A stretch of DNA of 64,000 nt from Druceiella hillmani (lineage: Eukaryota > Arthropoda > Insecta > Lepidoptera > Hepialidae). The position numbers and the translations under genes were made by a program. The first letter of the stretch is position 1, and every line of letters starts with the position of its first letter. Below, piece by piece: positions 7,246-57,730 of the stretch. Location: contig JAYKKI010000088.1 of the NCBI GenBank assembly GCA_039881145.1, positions 1,899,501-1,963,500 on the forward strand, read 5' to 3'. The notes under the pieces were generated by a model. That model saw only the letters and a program-made list of their open reading frames with translations, was not told the DNA's origin and ran no database searches.

Positions 7246-8432
7246 TAGGTGGTCTAAAGGAAACAGGTAAAAGTATATATACTGTTGCGTCTGGGTGTTA
7301 TGACACACTTAAATAGAGAAAATAATCCATGACAACCTTAGAAAAAACAAATAAGATAAAAAAATAAGATTCTTAAAAATATCATTTGAATAGTTGATCA
7401 GTTAGTTAAAAAATATCATCAGAAAAGTTATTTGTATTTTTTTAAGAAAAAAACCAAATTATTTCTAAATGTAATAATTTGTCAATGCAGTTTTTTTATG
7501 GAATTTTTCCAACTTGCATGATGCAACAAATTGCAGATTATGTTTTGTTATATCCTCCAAATATACAAATATTACCAACTTATTTACCAAGAAATTTACA
7601 AGTTCGATGGAATCGTGGGAAAAGCCACGTAAAATTCGTAAGGAACGAAAAACAAATTTCCGTTGACAACACAGAATGAAGGTCAATGTCAGTTAACAGT
7701 TTATATTTAATTTGTTTAGGTAATGACTACACGTTTATAAATCGATCGATATGAATTATTTTTTGTAATCGTTTCTAAAAATCTATTATGTTCAGTTCGA
7801 TTTGTATTATTATTTCTATTTCCAACTAACTATTCTTGATAAAATATAATATTTTTTGCGTTTAAGAAGAAAGTTTTTCTTTGTTTTATATTATGATCGT
7901 AAATTGTTTATTATTTTTTAACCTTTCCTGATTGTTAATCCTTGAAATTTTTAGTTTTTTTTATTCCAAAATATATCAGGAAACATTAGGCCAATTTTTA
8001 GCGGTCCCCTTTGATATATATTTTTTTCTATTTTTTGTCTTTTCAAGTGAATAATTAGAATGTGTTGATGATGATTATTGTCTGTTTTGTTTTTATTTTG
8101 AATTATTTACTTAACTCTACTAAATCTTTTAAAATCAACTAAATTAATTTTTCGCACCCAAATCTGATTGACTTGAAGATAGCACGCAGTTATAACATAT
8201 GCGTACGCATACGTTCTTTGTTTTATTCAGATTGATGTTTATAAATAAATATATAAGTAAGAATGATACATTTAAATCTATACCTCATCTTCATCAACGA
8301 TTTCGCAGTTTGTGAAAAATAGTGTTGTCAACAAATGTTATTATTTTGTTTATTTTCATATAGTTACATAGTAATTACAGTTGCAGGTCTATATAATTCA
8401 GTAAAGATAAAAGCACTGATTACATTATATAC
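7246..8432. other. No gene seen; AT-rich DNA
   Basis: A 66-codon open frame on + (7479-7679) overlaps a 73-codon frame on - . Neither has recognisable motifs. The remainder is AT-rich. Confidence 0.45.
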
Positions 8433-9548
8433 GCAAGAATTAACAAATTCTACGATACTCTGTATAACGCAACAATTCATAAATTCTACAAGATTGTAAT
8501 ACATAAGGACGACAAATTCTCTGTACAAGCAACAATTCATAAATTCTACAAGATGATAATACATAAGGATGAAAAATTCTCTGTACAAGCAACAATTCAT
8601 AAATTCTACAAGATTATAATACATAAGGATGACAAATTCTCTGTACAAGCAACAATTCATAAATTCTACAAGATGATAATACATAAGGATGACAAATTCT
8701 CTGTACAAGCAACAATTCATAAATTCTGCAAGATTATAATACATAAGGACGACAAATTCTCTGTACAAGCAACAATTCATAAATTCTACAAGACTATAGT
8801 ACATAAGGACGACAAATTTTCTGTACAAGCAACAATTCATAAATTCTACAAGACTATAATAAATAAGGACGACAAATTCTCTGTACAAGCAACAATTCAT
8901 AAATTCTACAAGACTATAATACATAAGGACGACAAATTCTCTGTACAAGCAACAATTCATAAATTCTACAAGACTATAACACATAAGGACGACAAATTCT
9001 CTGTACCAGCAACAATTCATAAATTCTACATGACTATATAATAGATAAGGACTACAAATTCTCTGTACAAACAACAATTCATAAATTCTAGAAGACTATA
9101 ATACATAAGGGTGACAAATTCTCTGTATAAGCAACAATTCATAAATTCTACAAGATAATAATATAAGGAGGACAAATTCTCTGTAGAACCAACAATTCAT
9201 AAATTCTACAAGACTATAATACATAAGGGTGACAAATTATCTGTACAAGCAACAATTCATAAATTCTACAAGACTATAATACATAAGGGAGACAAATTTT
9301 CTGTATAAGTAACAATTCATAGATTCTACAAGATTATAATACATAAGGACCACAAATTCTCTGTACAAGCAACGATTTATAAATTCTACAAGACTATAAT
9401 ACATAAAGACAACAAATTCTCTGTAAAAGCAACAATTCATAAATTCTACAAGATTATAATACATAATGACGACAAATTCTCTGTACAAGCGACTATTCAT
9501 AAATTCAGCAAGACTATAATACATAAGGACGACAAATTTTCTGTACAA
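8433..9548. repeat. 60-bp minisatellite, ~18 units
   Basis: Nearly perfect 60-bp tandem units, each containing AACAATTCATAAATTCTACA, then ACATAAGGACGACAAATTCT and CTGTACAAGC. The central units differ at only a few positions; the outer ones are more diverged, and units near 9040-9180 carry small indels. Because 60 is a multiple of three, open frames run through the array on both strands (237 codons on -, 162 on +). Their 20-residue periodic products are a consequence of the repeat and not evidence of a gene. The array ends abruptly at a LINE-like sequence near 9548. Confidence 0.95.
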
Positions 9549-9700
9549 TTCTGTGCGATCCAGACTTGAGTATGCTGCTGATGTTTGTCATTCATGATAT
9601 GTCATACATTGTGACTTGATGGATCGGTTGCAAAAAACGATTCAAACGAACATTGCAATATTGCTTCAATGTGCCTAAAAAGATATCTAATTAATTATAT
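9549..9700 (+). pseudogene. LINE reverse-transcriptase scrap
   Basis: The frame reads SVRSRLEYAADVCHS, a stop, then MDRLQKTIQTNIAI. This resembles the LVRSKLEYASVVWHP...LERIQRRF segment of insect LINE reverse transcriptases. It is very short and abuts the 60-bp array. Confidence 0.5.
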
Positions 9701-10127: not shown

Positions 10128-10265
10128 TCTACGTGATGTAGTATTATTTCTACTTTATTTAGATTATTTACCACGACCTAGGTTTCGTTGTATTACATCT
10201 TCAGGTGGGCAACTTGTAAAAATTGGCCAAATCTTTACAAAGAAACCTAGGTCGTGGTAAAGAAC
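10128..10265. mobile_element. Palindromic hammerhead element, copy A (decayed)
   Basis: First of five copies of a dispersed palindromic family. The left arm has CTACGTGATGTAGTATTATT and ACCACGACCTAGGTTTCGTT; the right arm has AGAAACCTAGGTCGTGGTAA. The minus-strand hammerhead motif (10171-10208) keeps CTGAAGA, GAAAC and the cleavage region, but lost three bases so that stem II is only about 2 bp. The right arm lacks the CTGAAGA half. The outer leader is missing, so the ends and any target duplication cannot be defined. Confidence 0.8.
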
Positions 10266-15069: not shown

Positions 15070-17654
15070 TGTCAATCACATAACTCTTGCTCAATAGACA
15101 AGATAGCCAGATTGGTTACTCAGCCTTAAAGTACTCATTGTGATCTTAAATAATTTTTGATCAATTTCAATTTTCAAAAACTTCTCTCCCAGCTGGGATT
15201 GCTCATGGCAGTGCTGAGGATTATTCGGAGTGTTATTATAGTATTGGGCAGAGTATCTTCCAGCTTGGATTTCACAATAAATTTTAATAATGCAAGCGGA
15301 TTCGCTTCTTTAACTTATTTTCATTGCCTGTGGCAGCAATGAAAGTCTGCAATCGAAGTCGTTTGAGCTTGAAGTCCTGCTCGTCAATTTTGGCAGTTGC
15401 GTAGTCTAGATTACATTTAGTGTCGTCCGAATTTAGTAATATAGGTGGGGTTAGATAAGCAAACTTATCCGTCAAATTCTGCAGCTGCTGAAACCTAAAA
15501 GCTCATGAATTTCTAAAATTATTCTATCTAACGAACAAAACAGCTTCCGTCTCAACTCACTTTCATAAGACAGGTTGGCATCACTTGTCTCGTCATCAAA
15601 ATATGCCTTCTCGTTACATGCCTCTGAGGTTCCATAGAAATGCCAAGTTCTTCACATATATTGTTTGCTTAAGTTATAACGCTATTTGCCATTCCTCTCG
15701 TAGGATACTGATAGGGATCAGTACCTTCTGCAAAGCATTTACTTTCTGAGCGCACCGTCTTATGTCAAGTCCCTTTGTTTGTAAATATTTTTGTGCATCA
15801 TTCACTTTATGTAGCACAGTCTGCCAGAGGCTCAAGAAACGAAGAAAGTAAAATGACTGCATCGTAACTAGCAAAGTTCCTTCATCTGTTCGTGTGTTTA
15901 TGCTTGCTACTGTCTCTGTCAGTTTTTCCAAAGCAACAATAATGTCTTTGTAATGATGCCGTGTCATATTTACGACATCGCCTCTTGGAATGCGAGAGGC
16001 GATGTCGTAAATGCTACGATGTCGTAATGTAAATGCCACGTGTCTTGAACTTTTTTTAAACTTTTGCTTGTAGGTGCTATCAGAACTTTTTAACGATATG
16101 TGGACATGGACAAAACATGAATAGCAACGTTCGAATGTGCCGAAAAGTTACTGAACTTACCTCTACTGAGGAAATGTGTAAACAAACCAGCTTTAAAGAA
16201 TTATTTGAGCGCGGTACGAATTCAAATTTGGGATTAATTTTTATAATTCTTTGCTGAACTCCTGAATGCTTTCTAGCCATAACATCAGCATTAACATATG
16301 CTTGGCCTCTACAGTTGTTCAACGAGCTCCATCTGAACCATCAGCTTCAAGCTTGCTCAAAATCATCTTTGAAATCCCATCAGCACTTTTATCTTTTGTT
16401 TCAATGAAATCTATAAAACATTTCATTACTTGTACTTCCTCACTTTCAATCGCTACGCATCTAAATACCTGGCTTGTTTGATAAATATCTGGAGAGCTGT
16501 CGAATATATTCGAATAATACTTGGCATTTTTTACCTGTCTGATGATAAGTTGGCGCACTTTATTTCCCAAAATTAAAATAAATTCATTTTTAATTTCTGG
16601 TGATATATATGTGATTAAAATGTTGTCCCACATTTTTGATCTAACAAGATGTTCACGCAGTATGGGATCGTACCTTGCTATTAAATGCACCAATTCCAAA
16701 AAAATCCTCCATTAGTACTGGTATCGTTTTACTATGGCAACGTAAAGCCAAATTTTGTTTAACAAGGGATTTTATAATATCAACCATTCTTATAAGAATT
16801 TCTGGCCATTTTTTGTTTCCTGTGCCACAAGGTTTTGCTCTTTCTTGTCAATGGTCTATCCTTTTTGAAATCTGGTCTCCAACTCCTCCCATTTGCAATA
16901 ATTTTGGTTGTGTGGTACACTTGATATGTGTCTTGAAACCTTAGGATTTAGTTTCTACCAAGTATTAAGTCCATCAGATGAGCAAAATTTTGACCATTTG
17001 GTGTATTTACGTTCTCAAATAAAGGACATCAAAAGCAAAATAATGATGCTTTGGAAGGAGAATAAGTCATCCAAGTACATAAAACTTTTTCGCTGTCAGT
17101 TAATGTGCAGTAAAACCATTCCTTGGTAAGCCACCTTGTCTCACCTTTTGATATTAAAAAGCACAAATCTGACCATGTTACTGTTGGTGCTTTGGCAAAA
17201 TTAGTATTGATATGCTGAACAACTTTCTGGCCCTGCTGAATGAGATAAAATTGCACATTTTTATCTACATGCTCAGGCCATTTTCCAATATCGTCTAAGT
17301 TTCCGTATTGAATAGCAGACAATGCCAATGCTTTATCAGTCTTTGTCACTAAGCTATAAAAATTCATATCTAGACATATAGATGCAGACTCTGATTGAGT
17401 AGATGTTGTTTGATCTTCAGGAACGATGTCAACATTCCTAATAAATGCCAGATCAACGCTGTCAAGTTTCTGTATTTTTTACCTTGTTCTGAGGTCGAAG
17501 GCTCAGATGTATTTAAGCCCTACATAGAATCTGATGTCTCAAGAACAGGTATTTTCACATATTTAAGTAAAGTCTCTCTATTTTTTCTAATATTTTCCAA
17601 CTTTGCTTTTCTTCTATTACGATAAGCTGTTCCACTTTCTTTTACTCTTTTCAT
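15070..17654 (-). pseudogene. hAT transposase pseudogene (TTF zinc finger / DUF4371 / hATC type)
   Basis: Read on the minus strand, blocks appear in family order. The start MKRVKESGTAYRNRRKAKLE is at 17654, a usual opening for these proteins. The N-terminal region (17367-17029) has LDDIGKWPEHVDK and GETRWLTKEW. The DUF4371 region (16699-16319) has LREHLV, YISPEIKNEFI, KYYSNIFDSSPD and KSADGISKMIL. Then come CRGQAYVNADVMARKHSGVQ (16322-16263) and NSLKLVCLH. The next block (16039-15674) has YKDIIVALEKL and FLSLWQTVLHKVNDAQKYLQ, and DYATAKIDEQDFKLKRLR is at 15475-15284. The C-terminal hATC dimerisation block (about 15250-15085) has TLPNTIITLRIILSTAMSN, ERSF, KLKLIKNYLRS and TNLAILSIEQELC. Intact length would be ~850 residues. 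Stops and frameshifts separate the blocks, and the Asp expected in the GQGYD motif is Val here (QAYVN), so the enzyme is dead. Long + strand frames in this interval are antisense shadows. Confidence 0.9.
15968..16012. repeat. Perfect 18-bp hairpin inside the hAT pseudogene
   Basis: ATTTACGACATCGCCTCT at 15968-15985 is mirrored exactly by AGAGGCGATGTCGTAAAT at 15995-16012 with a 9-base loop. A third related string (ACGATGTCGTAATG) follows. It lies in former transposase coding sequence, so it probably arose by a template-switch event after the gene died. Confidence 0.9.
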
Positions 17655-19584: not shown

Positions 19585-19674
19585 GTCACGTAAGTCGTGG
19601 ATCAACCGAAAAGGGGCGATAGGCCAAACTATGACTGGGTTACTGACGAAATTTTCCCTTAATAAAAATCTCTT

Positions 19675-19885
19675 GTTAAATATATTTGGCGTTAATTTTG
19701 TAGAAATTCATTATTCACAATTAAATGAAACTACGTGATGTAGTATTATTTCTACTTTCTTTAATTTCTTTACCACTACCTAGGTTTCAAAAATCTTTGC
19801 TAATAAAAAAAAATGGGATAGAAAGTGGTAAAGAAATTAAAGAAAGTAGAAATAATACTACATCACGTAGTTTCATTTAGTTGTG
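19675..19885. mobile_element. Palindromic hammerhead element, copy B
   Basis: Starts GTTAAATATATTTGGCGTTA, contains ACAATTAAATGAAACTACGT and its mirror, and ends CATTTAGTTGTG. It is flanked by the 11-bp direct repeat AAAAATCTCTT at 19664-19674 and 19886-19896. The opposite arm of the host inverted repeat (20770-20786, minus strand) has that string once with no insert, which proves insertion and the duplication. The hammerhead cores are lost: ACCTAGGTTTC is followed by an A-rich deletion junction. Confidence 0.9.
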
Positions 19886-20225
19886 AAAAATCTCTTAGTT
19901 TTCTCTATATTGACACTTTTTTAAATTTGTGAAATCATTAATGTGGGCCGATCTTTTGAGTGCCACGATTAATAATTAAGTCTGGTTTTTAATTTATTTG
20001 CGTTAAATATAGTAATAATACCCCTTTTGAATAATACCCCTTTTGTATCAAAACTTTACTAAAACTAATACAGGTTCTTTCAAAAAAAAAAGTTCAAAAA
20101 TATATTTTTTAGGATTTCGTAATTTTTATTACCAAACTTTGACTGTTTGTACTGAAAAAAAAACTATACTATTCAGAACTGGGAAAGCATTTAAAAAATT
20201 GGTACATATAATTCAAATTTTTTTT

Positions 20226-37508: not shown

Positions 37509-38159
37509 TACAAGAAATATTAAATTTAGTGAAACAATCTAATAAAATTTAATTAATAATGAAAATAAATATGTTGACAATTTATTGTAATTACTTAAAT
37601 ATAATACTAAATACTTATTTAATAAATGATAAAGTAATAATTTTTAATTTGCAATGCAAATAAATACACAGCGAAACTTAATCTCACTTTTAGAAATACA
37701 CTTACAATAAATTTTATTTTTATCACGAATATTCACAATAAATAATAATGTTTTTTATTATATACAGCACTATTAAATTTCGATTATTAAAAAATATTTT
37801 TTAAGATATAACTTAGATTTATATGAATGTAAAACACTTGTTGTGTATTTAAAAATATCTCAATAACTAACATGAATATAGCATCAGTCACTACACGAAT
37901 GTAAATATATTTTTAGTGACCAACTTCATCTCCCGATTTTTGTTGCATCGTGCGCGCTCATCGTGACCAACTTCATACTGTCGATTTTGATTGCATCATG
38001 ACCAACTTCATCCTGGCGCGCATCGTAAAATTTTACTAAAAAGTATAATTTAAAAAAAAAAGACATATTAAAGACGTATCACAATAGCAGGTTCAACTGC
38101 CGGATTAATTCTTATTCAGATGCAATAGACTTTAAGGTCACTTACGACTTACGAAATAT
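37509..38159. other. No gene seen; short GACCAACTTCAT repeats
   Basis: AT-rich. At 37917-38030 the string TGACCAACTTCAT occurs three times with intervening GATTTT-TTGCATC blocks and GCGCGC-containing ends, a small irregular repeat. Confidence 0.55.
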
Positions 38160-38285
38160 ATTAAATATATTTGGCGTTAATTTTGTAGAAATTCACAATT
38201 AAATGAAACTACGTGATGTAGTATTATTTCTACTTTCTTTAAAGTTCTTTACCACGACCTAGGTTTCGCTGTATTACAACATCAA
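38160..38285. mobile_element. Palindromic hammerhead element, copy C (one arm only)
   Basis: Leader TTAAATATATTTGGCGTTAA, then ACAATTAAATGAAACTACGT, CTTTACCACGACCTAGGTTT and CGCTGTATTACAACATC; it then breaks off. The minus-strand hammerhead keeps GAAAC, stem III, the GGTC cleavage site and a pairable stem II, but the CTGANGA strand is destroyed at the break. The right arm is missing. Confidence 0.85.
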
Positions 38286-38415
38286 TCAATCTTTGTTAAT
38301 TACTCGTTTTTAACGTGAAAAAATTGTATACATTTCAAAAATTTTCAGTTTTCTCCGTTTTTTTTGTATATGTAAAGGTACCTTGAAGTATGATGAAAAT
38401 AGCTATATAACTTAA

Positions 38416-38706
38416 AAGATAGTTACATAATTAATCAACAGCGCTATCTGTTTCTATTATTTAAAACCTTTATAAATGTGTAGTTTTGTAATTACGCACT
38501 AGTTGGCGTTGTTTATATTAATTATAATAAAGTTTATTTACGTATTAGTTACTAATACGTAAATATAAATGCTTTAATAAATTAAGAACGATTGTTATAA
38601 TTAATATAAACACCGCCAACTAGTGGAGAATTACAAAACTACACGTTTACAAAGGTTTTAAATAATAGAAACAGATGGCGCTGTCGATTAATTATGTAGC
38701 TATCTT
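38416..38706. mobile_element. Foldback element flanked by TTAA
   Basis: A 291-bp near-palindrome: AAGATAGTTACATAATTAAT on the left mirrors ATTAATTATGTAGCTATCTT on the right. ACAGCGCTATCTGTTTCTAT, GTGTAGTTTTGTAATT, CACTAGTTGGCG and TTTACGTATTAG are all mirrored. TTAA lies at both ends (38412-38415, 38707-38710). A 4-bp TTAA duplication is the signature of piggyBac-type insertion, so this is probably a piggyBac-mobilised MITE, although its ends do not show the usual CCY start. No coding. Confidence 0.8.
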
Positions 38707-38809
38707 TTAACTAATTAAATATTATTAGAATTGAAGAATATTCTCAATGTTGTCTTTTATAGATGTTGTAGATGTAATGCGAGCTTGGATGCTGCATCTT
38801 TGCCATTTT

Positions 38810-42272: not shown

Positions 42273-43032
42273 TGGACACGATCGTATTCGTCTACGCCAC
42301 TCCGTAATAGATTCTAGATAGTACTTAAGTACTAATCAATAAGAAATATGCTTTAATATCGTAATATGATTAATTACTAATTAGCAATATATTTAGACTT
42401 GAGTAATATTACTTTAACATACATAAACAACAGTCCGCCGTATAACTTTAATACTAAAATAAACTCAGAAAAACCTCAACAAATTTGTGGTTTCTTTCCA
42501 TCTATTTCTTAGCTACATCACTTAGCAACATTATATTGAAATATAATCTTCTCGCTACTAAATTTGTAGGGTTCTGTAGCCAAACTAGGAATCCTTATAG
42601 TTTTGCAATGTCTATCTGTTTGTCAATCCATTTTATCCACAGGTACAGTCGTTTTACTCGCAAACTATTAGTGTTTAAAGCTAAAATTAGGCAGTGTTAT
42701 ACATATTTATAACTCCTATAAAGGTATAAAATAAAATCTGAAAAAAAAGTTTATTAGGGAATCTCCCTATATGTAAACTGGGGTTGAATTTTTTTTATTA
42801 CCCCATTGTGTGGGGTATCGTTAAATATGTGTTTCAAAATGTTGGGGGTATGTCATAAACATTTTTTTTGAAACGGGAAACGGTTTACGAAATATTAAAT
42901 TTTAAAGTAGTCTTTTTTTAGAGTTACCTGTCTCCACCCCCTGTCAGCTAAACCGCTATTTTTGAATATCGGAAAAGTATTCACAATAGTATATATATAT
43001 ATATGGAAATTAAAAGGAAAATTATCACAGCT
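42273..43032. other. No gene seen; end fragment of a dispersed repeat
   Basis: GTAGGGTTCTGTAGCCAAAC with CTATCTGTTTGTCAATCC at 42568-42635 resembles the AGGGTTCCGTAG repeats. A short ATATATATATAT run is at 42992. Confidence 0.45.
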
Positions 43033-43144
43033 AAGTAGGTTCTACTATTGAATATATTTGGCGTTAATTTTGTAGAAATTAATTATTCACAATTAAATGA
43101 AACTACGTTATGTAGCATTATTTCTACTTTCTTTAAGTTCTTTA

Positions 43145-43185
43145 CCACGACCTAGGTTTCGTTGTATTACAACATCGTCAGGTGG
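43145..43185 (-). ncRNA. Type I hammerhead ribozyme motif (left arm, copy D)
   Basis: On the minus strand: CCAC (stem I), CTGACGA (core, position 7 variable), an extra T, GTTGT-AAT-ACAAC (stem II, 5 bp, 3-base loop), GAAAC, ACC-TA-GGT (minimal stem III), cleavage-site C, then GTGG closing stem I. All invariant core bases are present. The single T between the core and stem II is a bulge relative to the textbook motif. Predicted cleavage is after the C complementary to 43149. Confidence 0.75.
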
Positions 43186-43209
43186 GATATTAAGATCTTT
43201 GCTAATATC

Positions 43210-43250
43210 CCACCTGAAGATGTTGTAATACAACGAAACCTAGGTCGTGG
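43210..43250 (+). ncRNA. Type I hammerhead ribozyme motif (right arm, copy D)
   Basis: CCAC, CTGAAGA, T, GTTGT-AAT-ACAAC, GAAAC, ACC-TA-GGT, C, GTGG in order over 41 nt. Stem I is 4 bp, stem II 5 bp, and stem III 3 bp with a 2-base loop. The stem III strand ACCTAGGT is self-complementary, so two molecules could pair and form a dimeric hammerhead, as known for minimal type I motifs. Predicted cleavage is after C43246. Confidence 0.78.
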
Positions 43251-43324
43251 TAAAGAAATTAAAGAAAGTAGAATAGAGATACTACATCACGTAGTTTCAT
43301 TTAATTGTGAAGTAAGTTCTACTA

Positions 43325-44553
43325 GTTTACGAGTAATTGTCGATCAACTTATGACATGTTGTCGGGTTTGTAAAAAGTCCATAGAAACTCCATTCAAGTG
43401 ACTTATATCAATTGCAGAAACAACTTTGTATTTTAAAACCTTGATTAATTATACCTGGAACAGATATACTAGAAAATAATATTATTTAAATATGAATAAG
43501 ACATTTCTTCGAACTTATTAGGAATTGTAAAATTAAATTAAACAATTGCATTGCTCTGAAAACAAAGTTGGTTTATTTTAGTATTAGTGGTACACATAAG
43601 AATAATTACACAGTTTAACTTAAATAGTACTATACTACCTGAAAATAAAGAAACGATATTTAAAGTTTGTTATTTAAATTGTCAATTCCTTTATATATAT
43701 AATTTGTTTACTATAACCAAACGATCTGAATAATAATGCGAGTTCTGTCAACCAAAAATAATCTGCTTTGCTGACTGAGTTAGCCGCCAATACTCACAGC
43801 GCCATCTATGGAGTACATAAGTATATGGTCACTGTTTACCGACGGAAGAGCGCTGTACCAATTAAAGAAATATAGTTTTTTAAATAAGTACCACGCTTTT
43901 ACTCCTGTGAAACATTTAGCAAGCGATGTATTTAGGTCGTGGAAAATTAATTTTTTTAAAGATTTTAATAGAGATTTTATGTACCCTTAAATGTTTATAA
44001 GCGCTTAAGTATATACGAAACCCTCCTAGTGCGAGTTCTACTCGTACTTGACCTGCTTTTTATTTTCATGTAAAAATATAAACTGCTGACTGACATTGAC
44101 AAATGTTCTATTGTTGTCAAAATGAATGTCTTTTTAGATGTTTTTTGAATTTTTCGTCTCTTTTCTTCGACGACTCTGTCAAACATGCGAGTTTTATAGC
44201 TAAATAATATACCTGTGTATGGAATATATAATGGGAATAACCTGCAATTAGTCTAATTTTAATTTTGCTGCTACAATGAATTTAGTAGAAATAGCATTTA
44301 CAAATTATTCTGAAAAATAACCTGACTTTTCATAAAAAATACAGGATTTCCCATTTCACTGATCTACGATTTATATAAAGCTTTTAGAAATCCATTTTTC
44401 ATTTTCTCTGTATGAGAGTGTTATTTTCATTCTTGCAACACCTGGGTTCAATACTACATAGAAATACGACATGTGTGTAGATAACGAAATATGTATATTA
44501 AATCTATTTAAATTTCGCTGTTTTATAAAAAAATAATGCTGGCTAAATTGCAG
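43325..44553. other. No gene seen; repeat-family fragment
   Basis: At 43960-44060 there is an AGGGTTCCGTA-family piece (CTTAAGTATATACGAAACCC, TCCTAGTGCGAGTTCTACTC). The rest is AT-rich. A 60-codon + frame at 43808-43990 has no motif. Confidence 0.5.
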
Positions 44554-45305: not shown

Positions 45306-45443
45306 ATTTTATTTATCAACTTTAATGTATCTAATTGATACATATGGCGGACTTATTACTACGAGACCACTCTCTTACAGTCAACCATAACACCTGTCCA
45401 GCCCCGCTCGACGACGCTCGGGAAACGAACCTGGGTTTCCGCG
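45306..45443 (-). mobile_element. SINE with tRNA-type box B and LINE-shared tail
   Basis: On the minus strand: GCGGAAACCCAGGTTCGTTT (box B), CGAGCGGGGCTGGACAGGTG, TTATGGTTGACTGTAAGAGA, AATAAGTCCGCCATATGTAT and a TAAA-rich tail. Same organisation and same 5' boundary as the copy at 20.2 kb. It directly abuts the start of the 33-bp array. Confidence 0.85.
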
Positions 45444-45446
45444 ATG

Positions 45447-47905
45447 ATATTTATACTTATTACAAGATTGGTATTGTCTCTATTTACACTGATTACAAGA
45501 TTAGTATTGTATCTGTTTATATTGATTACTAGATTAGTATTGATTCTATCTATACTTACTACAATATTAGTATTGTCTATTTTATACTGATTACAAGGTT
45601 AGTATTGTCTCTATTTTATACTTATTACAAGATTAGTATTGTTTCTATTTATATTCATTACAATATTAATATTGTCTCTATTTATACCTATTACAAGATT
45701 AGCATTGTCTCTATTTATATTTATTACAAGATTATTATTGTCTCTGTTTATACTTATTACAAGATCAGCATTGCCTCTATTTAATACTTATTACAAGATT
45801 AGTATTGTCTCTATTTATACTGATTACAAGATTAGTTTTGTCTCTATTTATACTGATTACAAGATTAGTATTGTATCTATTTATATTGATTACAAGATTA
45901 GGAATGTCTCTATTTATACTGATTACAAGATTAGTATTATCTCTATTTATATTGATTACTAGATTAGTATTGATTCCATCTATACTTACTATAATATTAG
46001 TATTGTCTCTATTTTATACTGATTACAAGGTTAGTATTGTCTCTATTTTATACTTATTACAAGATTAGTATTGTCTCTATTTATATTCATTACAATATTA
46101 ATATTGTCTCTATTTATACCTATTACAAGATTAGTATTGTCTCTATTTATATTTATTACAAGATTATTGTTGTCTCTGTTTATACTTATTACAAGATCAG
46201 TATTGTCTCTATTTATACTGATTACAAGATTAGTTTTGTCTCTATTTATACTGATTACAAGATTAGTATTGTATCTATTTATATTGATTACAAGATTAGG
46301 AATGTCTCTATTTATACTGATTACAAGATTAGTATTATCTCTATTTATATTGATTACTAGATTAGTATTGATTCCATCTATACTTACTATAATATTAGTA
46401 TTGTCTCTATTTTATACTGATTACAAGGTTAGTATTGTCTCTATTTTATACTTATTACAAGATTAGTATTGTCTCTATTTATATTCATTACAATATTAAT
46501 ATTGTCTCTATTTATACCTATTACAAGATTAGTATTGTCTCTATTTATATTTATTACAAGATTATTGTTGTCTCTGTTTATACTTATTACAAGATCAGTA
46601 TTGCCTCTATTTAATACTTATTACAAGATTAGTATTGTCTCTATTTACACTGATTACAAGATTAGTAATGTCTCTATTTATACTGATTACAAGATTAGTA
46701 TTATCTCTATTTATATTGATTACTGGATTAGTATTGATTCTATCTATACTTACTATAATATTAGTATTGTCTCTATTTATACTGATTATAAGATTAGTAT
46801 TATCTCTATTTATACTGATTACAAGATTAGTAATGTTTCTATTTATACTGATTACAAGATTAGTATTATCTCTATTTATATTGATTACTAGATTAGTATT
46901 GTTTCTATCTATACTTACTACAATATTAGTATTGTCTATTTTATACTGATTACAAGGTTAGTATGGTCTCTATTTTATACTTATTACAAGATTAGTATTG
47001 TCTCTATTTATATTCATTACAATATTAATATTGTCTCTATTTATACCTATTACAAGATTAGCATTGTCTCTATTTATATTTATTACAAGATTATTATTGT
47101 CTCTATTTATACTTATTACAAGATCAGTATTGCCTCCATTTAATACTTATTACAAGATTAGTATTGTCTCTATTTATACTGATTACAAGATTAGTTTTGT
47201 CTCTATTTATACTGATTACAAGATTAGTATTGTCTCTATTTATACTGATTACAAGATTAGTTTTGTCTCTATTTATACTGATTATAAGATTAGTATTGTC
47301 TCTATTTATACTGATTACAAGATTAGTAATGTCTCTATTTATACTGATTACAAGATTTGTATTATCTCTATTTATTTTGATTACTAGATTAGTATTGATT
47401 CTATCTATACTTACTATAATATTAGTATTGTCTCTATTTTATACTGATTACAAGGTTAGTATTGTCTCTATTTTATACTTATTACAAGATTAGTATTGTC
47501 TCTATTTATATTCATTACAATATTAATATTGTCTCTATTTATACCTATTACAAGATTAGTATTGTCTCTATTTATACTGATTACAAGATTAGTATTGTCT
47601 CTGTTCATACTTATAAAAATATTAATATTGTCTCTAGTTATATTCATTACAAGATTAATATTGTATTTATTTATGCTGATTACAATATTAGTATTGTCTC
47701 TATTTTATACTTATTACGTGATTAGTATTGTCTTTATTTTATGCTTATTACAGGATTAATATTGTCTCTATTTATACTTATTACGAGATTAGTGTTGTCT
47801 CTATTTATACTTAATACAAGATTAGTATTGTCTCTATTTATATTTATTATAAGATTAATATTGTTCCATTTATACTTTTTACAAGGTTAGTATTGTCTCG
47901 ATGAG
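45447..47905. repeat. 33-bp minisatellite with higher-order structure, ~75 units
   Basis: Basic unit CTCTATTTATACTGATTACA then AGATTAGTATTGT. Variant units recur in order: the TATATTCATTACAATATTAA unit appears at about 45650, 46082, 46480, 47009 and 47507, so blocks of roughly 12-16 units were copied as wholes. Because 33 is a multiple of three, nine overlapping open frames of 87-140 codons exist in two frames on +. Their 11-residue repeats (ISIVSIYTDYK and LVLSLFILITR) are artefacts of the array. Confidence 0.95.
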
Positions 47906-47992
47906 TAGTGTCTAAGAATAGTATTTTCTCTACTTCATGAAGTAAATGTAATAAACATGAGGTGTATACTGTGTCCAATTACTGTAGCAATT

Positions 47993-48163
47993 CACAATTA
48001 AATGAAAAAGATCTTTGCTAATATCCTACCTGAAGATGTTGTAATACAACGAAACCTAGGTCGTGGTAAAGAAATTAAAGAAAGTAGAAATAATACTACA
48101 TCACGTAGTTTCATTTAATTGTGAATAATAAATTTCTACAAAATTAACGCCAAATATATTCAA
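47993..48163. mobile_element. Palindromic hammerhead element, copy E (inverted orientation)
   Basis: Starts CACAATTAAATG and ends in AATTAACGCCAAATATATTC AA, the reverse orientation of copy D. One arm is almost entirely deleted (ATGAAAAAGATCTTTGC), while the other is complete. It is flanked by a perfect 13-bp direct repeat TACTGTAGCAATT at 47980-47992 and 48164-48176. It sits just beyond the end of the 33-bp array. Confidence 0.92.
48026..48066 (+). ncRNA. Type I hammerhead ribozyme motif (copy E)
   Basis: CTAC, CTGAAGA, T, GTTGT-AAT-ACAAC, GAAAC, ACC-TA-GGT, C, GTGG. Relative to copy D, one stem I base is changed (C to T) and still pairs as a G-U wobble. All core bases are retained. Predicted cleavage is after C48062. 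Confidence 0.75.
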
Positions 48164-48176
48164 TACTGTAGCAATT

Positions 48177-49264
48177 ATTAAATTGTGATCACTGGAACGT
48201 AAGAGACGCTTTTGAATCAGTCTTTTGTATGATTGTTGGTTACCCTGTAACTCTTTAATGCTTTAATTGACATCGGCCGATGCAGTTTTTGTATTAACAA
48301 TTTTCATAACCTAGTCATAAAATACAATAAATGTAATTATGAATTTGCTATGCTGAATTTCTATAAGCAGTGTCTGACGGAGGGGTGATTTTCTTGAGTT
48401 GAAAAATTTTGTAGTATCTGGAAAAATTTAAGGCGGTTGAATTTCAAAACTGCTTTTGGCATGATGTGCTTATTTAAACCTTAACGGATTTGCAGTCACA
48501 TAAATACGCAGTATTTATTATTTTAATGTGTTATACCAGTTTTAAAGTTCTTCGTCTTCCTTGTTTCATCTGGTTTCCTTTCAATACGGGTCAACAGGCA
48601 ATCGTCACATGATTGTTGCTAGAATGGTGGAAATACTTCGATGTTCACCAGATGCATCGCTGTCGACTATGAAGTCTGGAGATAGCTCTCTGTGTCGATT
48701 ACAAATGAATACTTCACATTGAACGTAAAAAAAATCTATAATATTTAAACAACTCTTTACAAAGTCAGATCGTATCAAATTGTCGAACTCAATCGATTGG
48801 TTGAACTAAATTGAATTGAACTCAAATTGTGGCACTGCCTCTTATATTGCTCCATGTGATTCCATTGTGTGGCCGCTAGTTTCTACACCAGTACGACCTT
48901 TTTCTGAACCCGCAGATATACGATCGTAGCGTCGGCTATGACGGTTGTCCGAAACATTTTCATTACATAAAAGAAAATTTTAAAAGTATTTTTTTTTGCC
49001 CCACTCCGGAACGGGACACATTTATTGGAATTTATTTCACAAAAATGCTTCCCAAAATATTCGAAGTCAGAGCATGGGTTCTTAAGTACCGTATACACAA
49101 AAGTTTTCTCTGAGATTTTAAACATCTTTAATAAATAAAATTTCAGTGAAACATTTGGCTATTCGAACAATCTTCAATAGATTTGTTGATTTCGGAGTGG
49201 GACAATGAAAGTCATTTAATAATCTGTTACGTTAATTATTTCTATCTCGGAAAATACTTCGATT
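48177..49264. other. No gene seen
   Basis: An 80-codon minus frame (48883-49125) is somewhat more protein-like than most (ends MFKISEKTFVYTVLKNPCSD...) but is not recognised. The composition near 48530-48720 is mixed, without motif. Confidence 0.35.
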
Positions 49265-50125
49265 TCAAAACACTGCATTTCTCACTCTAGTGAGTGTATA
49301 TAAATGCTTGTTATTCTCACCGTAGTGAGAGTACACAAATGCTTGTTATTTCTCACCCTGGTGAGTGTACATAAATGCTTGTTATTTCTCACTCTACGGA
49401 GTGTATATAAATACTTGTTATTCTCACCCTAGTGAGTGTACATAAATGCTTATTATTCTCACCCTAGTGAGTGTACATAAATGCTTCTTATTTCTCATCT
49501 TATTGAGTACATAAATGCTTGTTATTTCTCACTCTAGTGAGTGTATGTAAATACTTGTTATTATCACCGTAGTGAGTGTACATAAATGCTTGTTATTTCT
49601 CACCCCGGTGAGTGTACATAAATACTTGTTATTTCTCACCCTGGTGAGTGTACATAAATACTTGTTATTTCTCACTCTAGTGCGTGTATATAAATACTTG
49701 TTATTCTCACCCTAGTGAGTGTACATAAATGCTTATTATTTCTCACCCTAGTGAGTGTATATAAATGCTTGTTATTCTTACCCTAGTGAGTGTACATAAA
49801 TGCTTCTTATTTCTCACCCTAGTGAGTACATAAATGCTTGTTATTTCTCACTCTAGTGAGCGTATGTAAATACTTGTTATTCTCACCGCAGTGAGTGTAC
49901 ATAAATGCTTATTATTTCTCATCCTAGTGAGTGTATATAAATGCTTTTTAATCTCACCCTAGTGAGTGTACATAAATGCTTGTTATTTCTCACTCTAGTG
50001 AGTGTATATAAATACTTGTTATTCTCACCCTAGTGAGTGTACATAAATGCTTGTTAATTCTCACCCTAGTGAGTGTACATAAATGCTTGTTATTCCTCAC
50101 TCTAGTGAATGTACATAAATGCTCC
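49265..50125. repeat. ~36-bp minisatellite with a dyad in each unit, ~24 units
   Basis: Unit: CTCACCCTAGTGAGTGTACA then TAAATGCTTGTTATTT, varying by one or two T and by CACTCTAG/CACCGTAG/CACCCTGG. Each unit carries the inverted repeat CTCAC-N4-GTGAG. Substitutions concentrate in the four central bases, and the arms are the best-kept part in most units. Not a CRISPR array: there are no unique spacers. Confidence 0.95.
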
Positions 50126-50924
50126 AACAAATCTTATTTCTATCATATAGATTTATAAAACACTCTTAATTCAGAAGTGCTTTATTTCTAGAAAAAAAAA
50201 ACTTTAATCTGAATGATTACCGTTAACTTTCTTTCGCATTTCGTTTTATATTGATTAACGAACTCATCGTAGAAATTTTATAAATATTTACTGTGGATAT
50301 CATCCGCTTCAATTTAAATTAACAGAAATTAAATTTAAAATTACCATAAAGAATAAATTGCCACTCTAATAAGAAAGTTATTTCGAGCAATAATATGTAT
50401 ATCACAATGTTACGTCAGTCTGAAAGGATTTAAATGCAGAAATAGTTTTATTAAAAGTTTTTCCTGAGAATTCGAGCATTTTAAGGGTTATTTTTATAAA
50501 ATTGTGCTAATTGAAATAATATCTAATCGATCGAATGAACAATTAATTCTGAAGTGGGACAAAAATAAAAGACTAATTTTTAACATTGTCCTTTGTAAAA
50601 CTATTTCGAGTGTCTCCTTACTTCAAAGTATTCTTGTTAATGTAGAATGAAACTACCTCGTCGAAACTTTGTTGCTCAATTCTCCTTCCGAGTTTTAGTA
50701 TCAAAACTTTTCAACCATCCGACGAACAGACTTGAAATTTTGAGCAAATGTGTATGTAGTACTTCATTGCAACATGCTATCGAAATGATCTCTCGCGATG
50801 TTCCTTTGTTGGTTGTGTATTTGATTTTGGTATGTACAATTTTTATACACAATTACGTAGTACATGGTAACATATAATATCTACTGAAATAAAGGAAACA
50901 TAACTTTTGTCTCTTTTCTTTCGC
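50126..50924. other. No gene seen; one unrecognised open frame
   Basis: A + frame of 76 codons at 50647-50877 (MKLPRRNFVAQFSFRVLVSK ..., ending in a hydrophobic VPLLVVYLILVCTIFIHNYV segment) is followed by AAATAAAGG. It looks like a possible small membrane protein but has no homologue known to me and no visible promoter; chance is more likely. Confidence 0.35.
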
Positions 50925-53215: not shown

Positions 53216-54184
53216 CGGTACGAGAAGGTATACAATGCGATCGTGAATCCGCTTGCCCTGCGTGGTCATTATGGACATTATCTCTTCAATGATATGCCTA
53301 TTGGGAGTGTGGACGAAGACAGGCTGTTGCTGATGATGGTGTCAAATTGCATCGATCCTATTGAAACACGCGTAAATGGGGCTCGTGGTGGGTTTTATCT
53401 CCTGGAATTGTTCATGCAAGTTAACTAAAATTATTTCTTAAAATATTTTTAGATGTTTTTTAATTAATGGTCAAAAAGAGGGGTATGGCAGAGTGTTGGA
53501 TCCCATCGCCTCTCACTTTGGAGTGTATGGTTGTGCAAACTTTTGAATTTAGCCTCCTGTGTGAGAACCAAAAGACACCTGTGTGAGAACCAAAAGAAAT
53601 TTAAAAAAAATGGTAGGACCTATTAATGAAGATGCTCCTTTGGAGCATCTACTTGCTTAATTTTATGAACGCTGTTTTAAAACTATGTCAATCGTAAAGC
53701 TGTGACAGACCCACGGTTTGAATAGACCAGGCGTATTCATAAGGAATCTAAGTAAATTTTCCACAATGGAAGTTTAAAAACTGATCAGGCGCGTGTTAGA
53801 ACTCGCAAAGTAAAATCTAGTAGTTATTCTGTACTATGGTCCAAAATGGAAATGCAATCGTAAATTTCCAAAAAAATGGACAAAAGAATGATTTTTAAAA
53901 AGACCTGTCGTTTACGAGTAGAACTTGGACTATGAGGAATATACATTCAAGCACTTTAAAACACTTTAGGGTACAAAGTAATGAATGTTTATTTTTACTT
54001 TATATGTTTAGTTATTATGTCCAATTTTATGTTTCCACGTGGCATAGTTTCTAAGAAAATCGGCTATCACTGCTGTCACAGACGGACTGACAGACAGACA
54101 AAAAATAATGTGATCAATTTTCACTGATAGAATGGTAAAGTATGCCTTTTCTAATGTTTTTAAAGGAACAAAATTTGAGCTATC
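53216..54184. other. No gene seen; small duplications
   Basis: ACCTGTGTGAGAACCAAAAG occurs twice in tandem near 53555-53600 (first copy imperfect), and AGATGCTCCTTTGGAGCATC at 53630 is a hairpin. A 61-codon + frame at 53243-53428 has no motif. Confidence 0.5.
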
Positions 54185-54700
54185 AGTATACCACTTTTGT
54201 ATACCTCTTTGTATCTGCGTACCACTTATATACACTATAATCACTTTTTTATACCTCCTTGTATCCGTATTCTACTTATATATACTATAATCACTTTTTT
54301 ATACCACTTTGTATCTGTGTACTACATATATACACTGTAACCATCTTTCTATACCACTGTGCTTCCATATACCACTTATATACGCTATAGTAACTTTCGT
54401 ATACCACTTTGTATCTGTATACTAGTCATATACACTAAACCCTTTTTGCATATCTCTTTGTACCTGCATACCACTTATATACCCTATAACCACTTTTATG
54501 TACCTCTTTATATCTGTATCCCACTTATATACACTACAATTACTTTTGTATACCACTTTGTATCAGTATACCATTTATATATACTATAATCGCATTTGCA
54601 TACCACTTTGTATCTGTATAACATTTATGCATATACACTGTAACTATTTTGTTTACCTCTTTGTATCTGTATACACTATAATCATTTTACGACTCCATTT
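54185..54700. repeat. ~52-60-bp degenerate repeat, ~9 units
   Basis: TATACCACTTTGTATCTGTA, TACCACTTATATACACTATA and ATCACTTTTGTATACC recur with variable spacing. Open frames across it (76 and 74 codons) are repeat products. Confidence 0.9.
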
Positions 54701-56510: not shown

Positions 56511-57022
56511 GTATGTTAATCTGTTCATTAATCACACAAATTTCACTGGACATATTTTTATGAAATTCGGTATGGTAATAGTTTATAGCCAATATGGGAG
56601 AAACAAAAATTGATAACTTTAATTATTCTGAATTTATTATGCGAATTCTCTGAGATAACTTTTATTATGCGAATTTCATGCGAGGGAAACCGTGGGTCGT
56701 GGGTCCGTTTGGTTAGTTAGTTAACTAATAAAACGAAAATAGGCGGAGACCAGAGGAGCAAGAATAGAGAGAGAGAGTAAGAATATGTGCAGAAAACGGA
56801 GGTTGGAAATATTTCAGCTACTGTTTTTGGCCCCGTTTTCTGCAGATATTAATCGAAACAGTAGTCAAAAACGGTAGCTGAAAACAGGAGTCGAAAAAAA
56901 AAGAGTTTTTGTAGGAAACTGTTTACAAAAATTATACTTATTAACAAATCATTGTGAAAATCAATACGCTGCTGTTCTGATAGTTAACCAATCGGTTTTA
57001 AAAGAATTACGAATATTGCATC
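56511..57022. other. No gene seen; imperfect inverted repeat
   Basis: TGCAGAAAACGG near 56788 is mirrored by CCGTTTTCTGCA near 56832, and AGCTACTGTTTTTGGC by GTAGTCAAAAACGGTAGC-like sequence near 56862, so 56788-56890 folds back on itself. Confidence 0.55.
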
Positions 57023-57607
57023 CCTATATGTACATACTACATTCTTATATAATACATACTTATATACTACATAGGTACATACTACATACGTGCATACTAC
57101 AGTCGTACATACTACAAACTTACATACTACATACGTACATACTACATACGTACATACTACATACATACATACTACATACGTACGTACCACATACGTACAT
57201 ACTACATACGTACATACTACATACGTACATTCTACATACGTAAATACTATATAGGTACATACTACATACGTATATACTACATACGTACATACTGCATACG
57301 TACATACTACATACGTACATACTACATACGTACATACTACATACGTACGTACTACATACGTACATACTACATACGTACATACTACATACGTACATACTAC
57401 ATACGTAAATACTATATAGGTACATACTACATACGTATATACTACATACGTACATACTACATACGTAAATACTGCATAGGTACATACTACATACGTACAT
57501 ACTACATACGTACATACTATATACGTTCACACTACATACGTACATACTACATACTAACCTACTACATACGTAGAAATACATATGTACATACTACACACGT
57601 ACATAAT
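57023..57607. repeat. 15-bp minisatellite, ~38 units
   Basis: Unit TACATACTACATACG, with TATATAGG, TACGTACG and TGCATA variants that recur in blocks (for example CGTAAATACTATATAGG at about 57239 and 57404). The frames of 153 and 68 codons on - and 75 on + are products of the 15-bp repeat (periodic YVCSM or ILHTY). Confidence 0.95.
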
Positions 57608-57730
57608 AAATACTTATATACAACGTACAGACCAATGGAGACGTATGTTATTTTTCAAAGGCAAATTAAGATCACAATAAATATTAAAAGAAAAAAAAAC
57701 ACGTTGAGCCCGAGCGGAACTCGTACTACA

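Follow-up and report, generated by a model that had tools for sequence, protein, structure and literature searches.

The window analysed here, the whole 64-kb stretch of Druceiella hillmani DNA, is AT-rich, with a GC content of 22-38% in 2-kb steps, and tandem repeats and runs of (TA)n are numerous in it. Dispersed within it are five copies of one small element, designated A to E, none of them in tandem (Table 1). Copy D is a 262-bp palindrome, flanked exactly by a direct repeat, and it carries a 41-nt motif resembling a minimal type I hammerhead ribozyme on each strand. The palindrome and both motifs were found where a preliminary description, made from the sequence alone, had placed them. 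Both motifs are intact only in D; E keeps one, and in A, B and C parts are missing.

Table 1. Coordinates of the element copies, their subdivisions and their flanking duplications in the window
Feature	Position	Strand	Remarks
Copy A	10129..10265	.	both arms shortened; a 3-nt deletion breaks stem II
Copy B, left target-site duplication	19664..19674	.	AAAAATCTCTT; 11/11 identical to 19886-19896
Copy B	19675..19885	.	palindrome with most of the centre deleted; hammerhead lost
Copy B, right target-site duplication	19886..19896	.	pairs with 19664-19674
Copy C	38159..38303	.	tail-bearing arm and remnant of centre; 5' strand of hammerhead lost
Copy D, left target-site duplication	43033..43047	.	AAGTAGGTTCTACTA; 14/15 identical to 43310-43324
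Copy D, whole palindromic element	43048..43309	.	262 bp
Copy D, tail	43048..43085	-	38 bp, left arm only; 3' end as read on the - strand
Copy D, left arm	43086..43199	-	candidate 5'-truncated pseudo-LTR; inner border nominal
Copy D, minimal type I hammerhead	43145..43185	-	descriptor match; predicted cut after C43149
Copy D, junction between arms	43186..43209	.	putative remnant of the symmetric centre TTAGCAAAGATCTTTGCTAA
Copy D, right arm	43200..43309	+	without tail; inner border nominal
Copy D, minimal type I hammerhead	43210..43250	+	descriptor match; predicted cut after C43246
Copy D, right target-site duplication	43310..43324	.	AAGTAAGTTCTACTA; 15 bp, one mismatch to left duplication
Copy E, left target-site duplication	47980..47992	.	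TACTGTAGCAATT; 13/13 identical to 48164-48176
Copy E	47993..48163	+	one tailed arm and a 15-nt stub of the other (internal deletion)
Copy E, hammerhead motif	48026..48066	+	no full antisense arm opposite
Copy E, right target-site duplication	48164..48176	.	pairs with 47980-47992

The inner 71 nt of the two arms of D (43122-43192 and 43203-43273) are 97% complementary. Counted from an ATG at the base of stem II of the hammerhead (A = +1), the right arm ends at +90 and the left arm at +128, and the 38 bases between these points are the one-armed tail; the same termini are found in D, E and B. The junction of D would correspond to TTAGCAAAGATCTTTGCTAA minus 4 nt on one side. An interpretation in which D and E differ by a flipped loop was abandoned, because this single symmetric centre, with deletions, accounts for both copies.

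A centre word, ATCTTTG(C/T)TAAT, identified by eye, is common to B, C, D and E, and in A there is only a look-alike. Since four of the five copies retain part of one centre, the palindrome appears to have been copied as a unit, and not formed anew in each copy. The right border of copy C was also set by eye, the BLAST match stopping at 38283.

Apparent target-site duplications bound three of the copies, measuring 15 bp with one mismatch in D, 13 bp in E and 11 bp in B. At D, an exact abutting-word test finds a longest word of 2, owing to the mismatch, and a test for 15 bases with mismatches recovers the duplication; neither test finds one at A or C. Among random pairs of points, a control that the tandem arrays inflate, exact abutting words of at least 11 occur in 1.1% of cases and of at least 13 in 0.84% with those arrays included, and a match of 14 in 15 occurs in 1.4% overall and in 0.15% outside large tandem arrays. 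Variable duplication length suits target-primed integration more than cut-and-paste transposition, in which the length is fixed. A DNA transposon with a fixed duplication length was rejected on the three lengths in D, E and B.

Hammerhead core and stems

The motif on the + strand of D reads CCACCUGAAGAUGUUGUAAUACAACGAAACCUAGGUCGUGG, and the version on the - strand differs at N7 only (A to C). The hammerhead core consensus applied here is CUGANGA ... GAA(A) ... UH. In both D motifs and in the + strand motif of E, the conserved core is complete, comprising C3, U4, G5, A6, N7, G8 and A9, then G12, A13 and A14, then the A15.1/U16.1 pair and H17. The statement in the preliminary description that every invariant hammerhead base is present on both strands of D is thus confirmed. 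It had also described stems I, II and III as closed; this is true of stem I, with 4 bp, and of stem II, with 5 bp and a loop of 3 nt, but stem III is very weak, and a bulged U between A9 and stem II, present in all three motifs (position 43221 on the + strand of D), had gone unmentioned. Stem III as 3 bp needs a 2-nt loop, and in the structure evaluated here 2 bp close a 4-nt loop. The place of a stable stem III is taken by ACCUAGGU, which is self-complementary, and two molecules could share its 8 bp. The two motifs of D are one motif doubled by the palindrome and are not independent finds.

The extra U creates the ATG mentioned above (43220-43222, A9-U-G10.1), which places C17 at base +27. 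De la Peña and Flores reportedly described a viroid hammerhead with an extra core nucleotide in 2001. It may be, as a conjecture, that the extra U is common to the hammerheads of Penelope-like elements (PLEs).

A descriptor that allows at most one bulged base matches the window three times, each time within this family; with the bulge disallowed, it has no match across the window. No matches to the bulge-allowing descriptor occur in 60 dinucleotide shuffles. First-order Markov sequence totalling 461 Mb yields 39 matches when the stems are lax (0.011 per 128 kb) and four at the stem lengths of D (0.0011 per 128 kb), none of these with short loops. Approximately 0.001-0.01 chance matches are thus expected per window, figures that are underestimates because the descriptor was written after the motif had been seen. 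Together, the shuffles and the Markov rates led us to reject a chance origin of the motif. The same rates count against a palindromic DNA transposon remnant, a MITE or a foldback element, in which the hammerhead match would be coincidental or irrelevant. Such a remnant could account for the near-perfect inverted arms, the small size, the several copies and the absence of a detected gene, and an unrelated foldback element also lies in the window, but three different duplication lengths and the one-sidedness of the tail do not fit it, and we consider this explanation unlikely.

Covariance models gave a weaker signal. Rfam finds nothing at gathering thresholds over the whole window, and a search of 43000-43340 (341 bases) at E ≤ 10 returns 17 matches, none of which is a hammerhead. 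On a 58-base stretch, for which the Rfam filters are laxer than on longer sequence, the + strand motif of D matches Hammerhead_1 with 16.6 bits (E 0.055; cut-off 34), and on a similarly laxly filtered 57-base stretch that of E scores 14.8 bits (E 0.21; same cut-off). By our own arithmetic, the E-value for D becomes approximately 0.014 when rescaled to the whole window, both strands and one family. The preliminary description had proposed that the lack of an above-threshold covariance hit should count as a refutation, and formally it does, neither score reaching 34, though the match is full-length, covering model positions 1-45 of 45. An exact 24-base search with the 3' half of the hammerhead and its flank found no matches in viral and prokaryote contigs, which, given the nature of those contigs, is little informative.

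Four substitutions occur within the motif: N7 on the - strand of D, one in stem I of E, one in stem II of C and one at H17 of B, those in C and B being read by eye. Every one of them obeys hammerhead rules, compared with 34 of the 123 possible single changes (a probability of 0.006 if they are independent), a small number in which two of the four sit in copies already broken. This pattern offers a hint, and no more, that the motif may once have mattered. Strong maintenance is not evident, because the deletion in A breaks the motif and only half of it is left in B and C.

Predicted folding and cleavage

For the whole of copy D, the predicted folding energy is -152.1 kcal/mol on the + strand and -154.1 kcal/mol on the - strand, against -78.9 and -81.9 kcal/mol, respectively, with the hammerhead enforced. 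On either strand, the long hairpin is thus predicted to be more stable than the hammerhead-enforced fold by approximately 72 kcal/mol, which supports the idea that the antisense arm is able to bury the ribozyme. On both strands, the motif of D sits in the 3' arm, and its own antisense is transcribed first. For copy E, the corresponding predictions are -32.3 and -22.2 kcal/mol. The energy models leave out tertiary contacts in the core and help from proteins. Given the gap in favour of the hairpin and the order of transcription, D is therefore expected to stay uncleaved and E to be the realistic candidate; in D, cleavage is probably off, with the hammerhead hidden within the predicted hairpin.

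Bare 41-mers fold differently as monomers and as dimers. The best predicted fold of the monomer is not a hammerhead in any of the three cases (both strands of D, and E). For homodimers of either D motif, the best fold is a double hammerhead whose two halves share an 8-bp stem III (-23.0 kcal/mol), and for the E dimer it is another structure (-22.6 kcal/mol, compared with -18.4 kcal/mol for the double hammerhead). Once the 41-mers are extended by 10 natural flanking bases at both ends, none of the three dimers has the double hammerhead as its best fold.

The preliminary description had suggested that self-cleavage in D might depend on whether the RNA folds as a long hairpin or as local ribozymes. 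A functional conformational switch of this kind, in which the RNA alternates between the two and folding regulates cleavage, would be in keeping with two intact motifs and a complementary antisense arm. In the portion of PMC11167929 drawn on here, the hammerhead of PAc, the Poseidon PLE of Anolis carolinensis, cut only after PLE protein was added, and for this reason a protein might also open the hairpin of D. On energy, the switch is nevertheless improbable, the hairpin being favoured by the margin given above on either strand with the antisense arm made first, and only one of the five copies retains both motifs; we regard it as very unlikely.

Predicted hairpins this stable raise the question of a double-stranded or small RNA source, the transcript entering the processing route of miRNA precursors or of hairpin siRNAs. 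The 17 sub-threshold Rfam matches include 13 miRNA precursors, but their scores of 20-50 bits fall short of cut-offs of 51-150, a result that any long hairpin might give. Identity as a miRNA precursor was rejected on these sub-threshold scores, and a small RNA source in the wider sense seems the most remote of the explanations weighed here.

Probable relation to Penelope-like elements

Copy D is best read as a non-autonomous PLE derivative, made up of two 5'-truncated pseudo-LTRs (pLTRs) placed head to head, only one of which bears the 3' tail of the element, and lacking any coding region; we put the probability of this reading at about 0.7. We infer the PLE ancestry from the layout and from the manner of insertion: an inverted pLTR pair with a tail of 30-40 bp on one member is what the arm ends and shared termini of D, E and B describe, and the duplications vary in length as those of PLEs should. 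Pfam matched no family at its cut-off, and so no reverse transcriptase (RT) or GIY-YIG gene, in the 20 open reading frames (ORFs) scanned, out of 185 stop-to-stop ORFs of at least 60 amino acids in the window, and an ORF with both domains is unexpected in a non-autonomous copy. The frame that opens at the ATG of D stops after two codons, ATG TTG TAA (43220-43228). An early stop is allowed in a non-coding derivative, yet it is no help to the PLE reading.

The comparisons that follow refer to the portions of the cited papers drawn on here. The Penelope element of Adineta vaga has a direct and a shorter inverted pLTR, one of which may bear a 31-bp tail (38 bp in D); some of its copies have duplications of 8-10 bp while others lack them, and its inverted junctions contain palindromes, for which self-priming was proposed (PMC3846280). 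D is like it in its head-to-head inverted pLTRs, its one shorter arm, its palindromic junction and the presence of duplications in some copies. However, the A. vaga element has an RT and endonuclease ORF and pLTRs of approximately 200 bp, whereas D has no ORF and arms of approximately 110 bp, and all three duplication lengths here exceed the 8-10 bp seen there (PMC3846280). The palindrome is repeated as a family in the window, unlike that of A. vaga, and the word hammerhead does not occur in that paper (PMC3846280). Inverted pLTRs in PLEs are also described in PMC8969392. The preliminary description had taken the inverted arrangement to be non-standard, a view that does not survive these reports of inverted, partly truncated pLTRs and palindromic junctions (PMC3846280, PMC8969392).

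Its suggestion of a resemblance to the hammerheads of PLEs fares better, as minimal hammerheads are described in PLE pLTRs (PMC7761336, PMC11167929). These are of type I, with stem III absent or very short, and tandem ones may cleave as dimers (PMC7761336). In the present motif, stem III is self-complementary and thus shareable between two copies; additionally, the minimal PLE hammerheads are reported in tandem (PMC7761336), whereas D has one on each strand, opposed, so that one RNA carries one sense motif. Compared by description, the ATG of D and its predicted cut position agree with the text on PAc, which consists of tandem full elements, unlike the inverted and ORF-less D (PMC11167929). 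As reported in the same portion of that paper, hammerhead mutants of PAc were unaffected in insertion in vitro, and no RNA-seq reads started or ended at the hammerhead cut (PMC11167929).

Metazoan non-LTR retrozymes, small elements living as circular RNA from hammerhead-cut tandem copies, are another possible source. They are likewise small and AT-rich, with a type I hammerhead and duplications longer than 4 bp (PMC7229834), and copy D agrees with them in each respect. Against this, retrozymes are tandem direct repeats with full hammerheads, which in their canonical form have loops 1 and 2 in contact (PMC7229834), but the five copies here are dispersed without a single tandem direct repeat among them, the arms are inverted, the tail is one-sided and the hammerhead is minimal, with a stem I of 4 bp. 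A retrozyme is accordingly an unlikely identity for this family.

Under the preferred reading, that of a gene-less PLE derivative, a hammerhead on each strand would follow from the inverted pLTR pair, because each arm would bring its own minimal type I hammerhead, which in PLEs lies at the boundary between UTR and ORF. The mirroring of the ribozymes is then probably a side effect of the inverted end and no new device. Mobilisation might begin with transcription or read-through that yields an RNA containing the tail. A PLE protein acting in trans could then cut AT-rich DNA, prime reverse transcription at the tail and copy the RNA, and a repair step would leave duplications of varying length. 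The inverted arm may first have formed via self-priming or template switching, after which the palindrome would be copied as a unit. The hammerhead would be inherited cargo, which could still cut read-through or dimeric RNA where it is free, for example in copy E.

It is also conceivable that the pLTR palindrome is mobile and spreads as a family of its own with a self-silencing ribozyme, off when the arms are paired and on only once the palindrome has been disrupted, as in E, or unfolded by a PLE protein, such that palindromic RNA would persist as template and broken copies would cut themselves. We consider this elaboration highly improbable.

If the PLE derivative reading is right, an inverted pLTR pair without genes can be copied as a unit. 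This would bear on how inverted PLE junctions form, self-priming being one route, and on the purpose of the PLE hammerhead, which in D is present, mirrored and probably silent; in a palindromic host element, a hammerhead on each strand would need no special function. Each single ingredient has already been described. An ORF-less palindromic pair of hammerhead-bearing pLTRs as a repeated family was not found in the open-access literature searched, within which the combination is apparently new, although this is no proof of absence elsewhere.

Other repeats in the window

A second foldback element, unrelated to the family, is located at 38407-38715, with 141-nt arms that are 87% complementary, a 27-nt spacer and a AACAGATGGCGCT-type motif in the arms. 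On the - strand at 15677-17478, there are three broken high-complexity ORFs that by eye resemble a decayed transposase-type gene, with no Pfam match at cut-off. A long minisatellite with a 33-bp unit begins at 45415 and extends beyond 47172 (43 overlapping register copies were counted), and the GC content of 46001-48000 is 22%. More minisatellites occur at 56906-57610 (15-bp unit), 8323-9642 (60 bp), 49174-50165 (about 36/71 bp) and 54134-54678 (50 bp), and some of these leave long low-complexity open frames.
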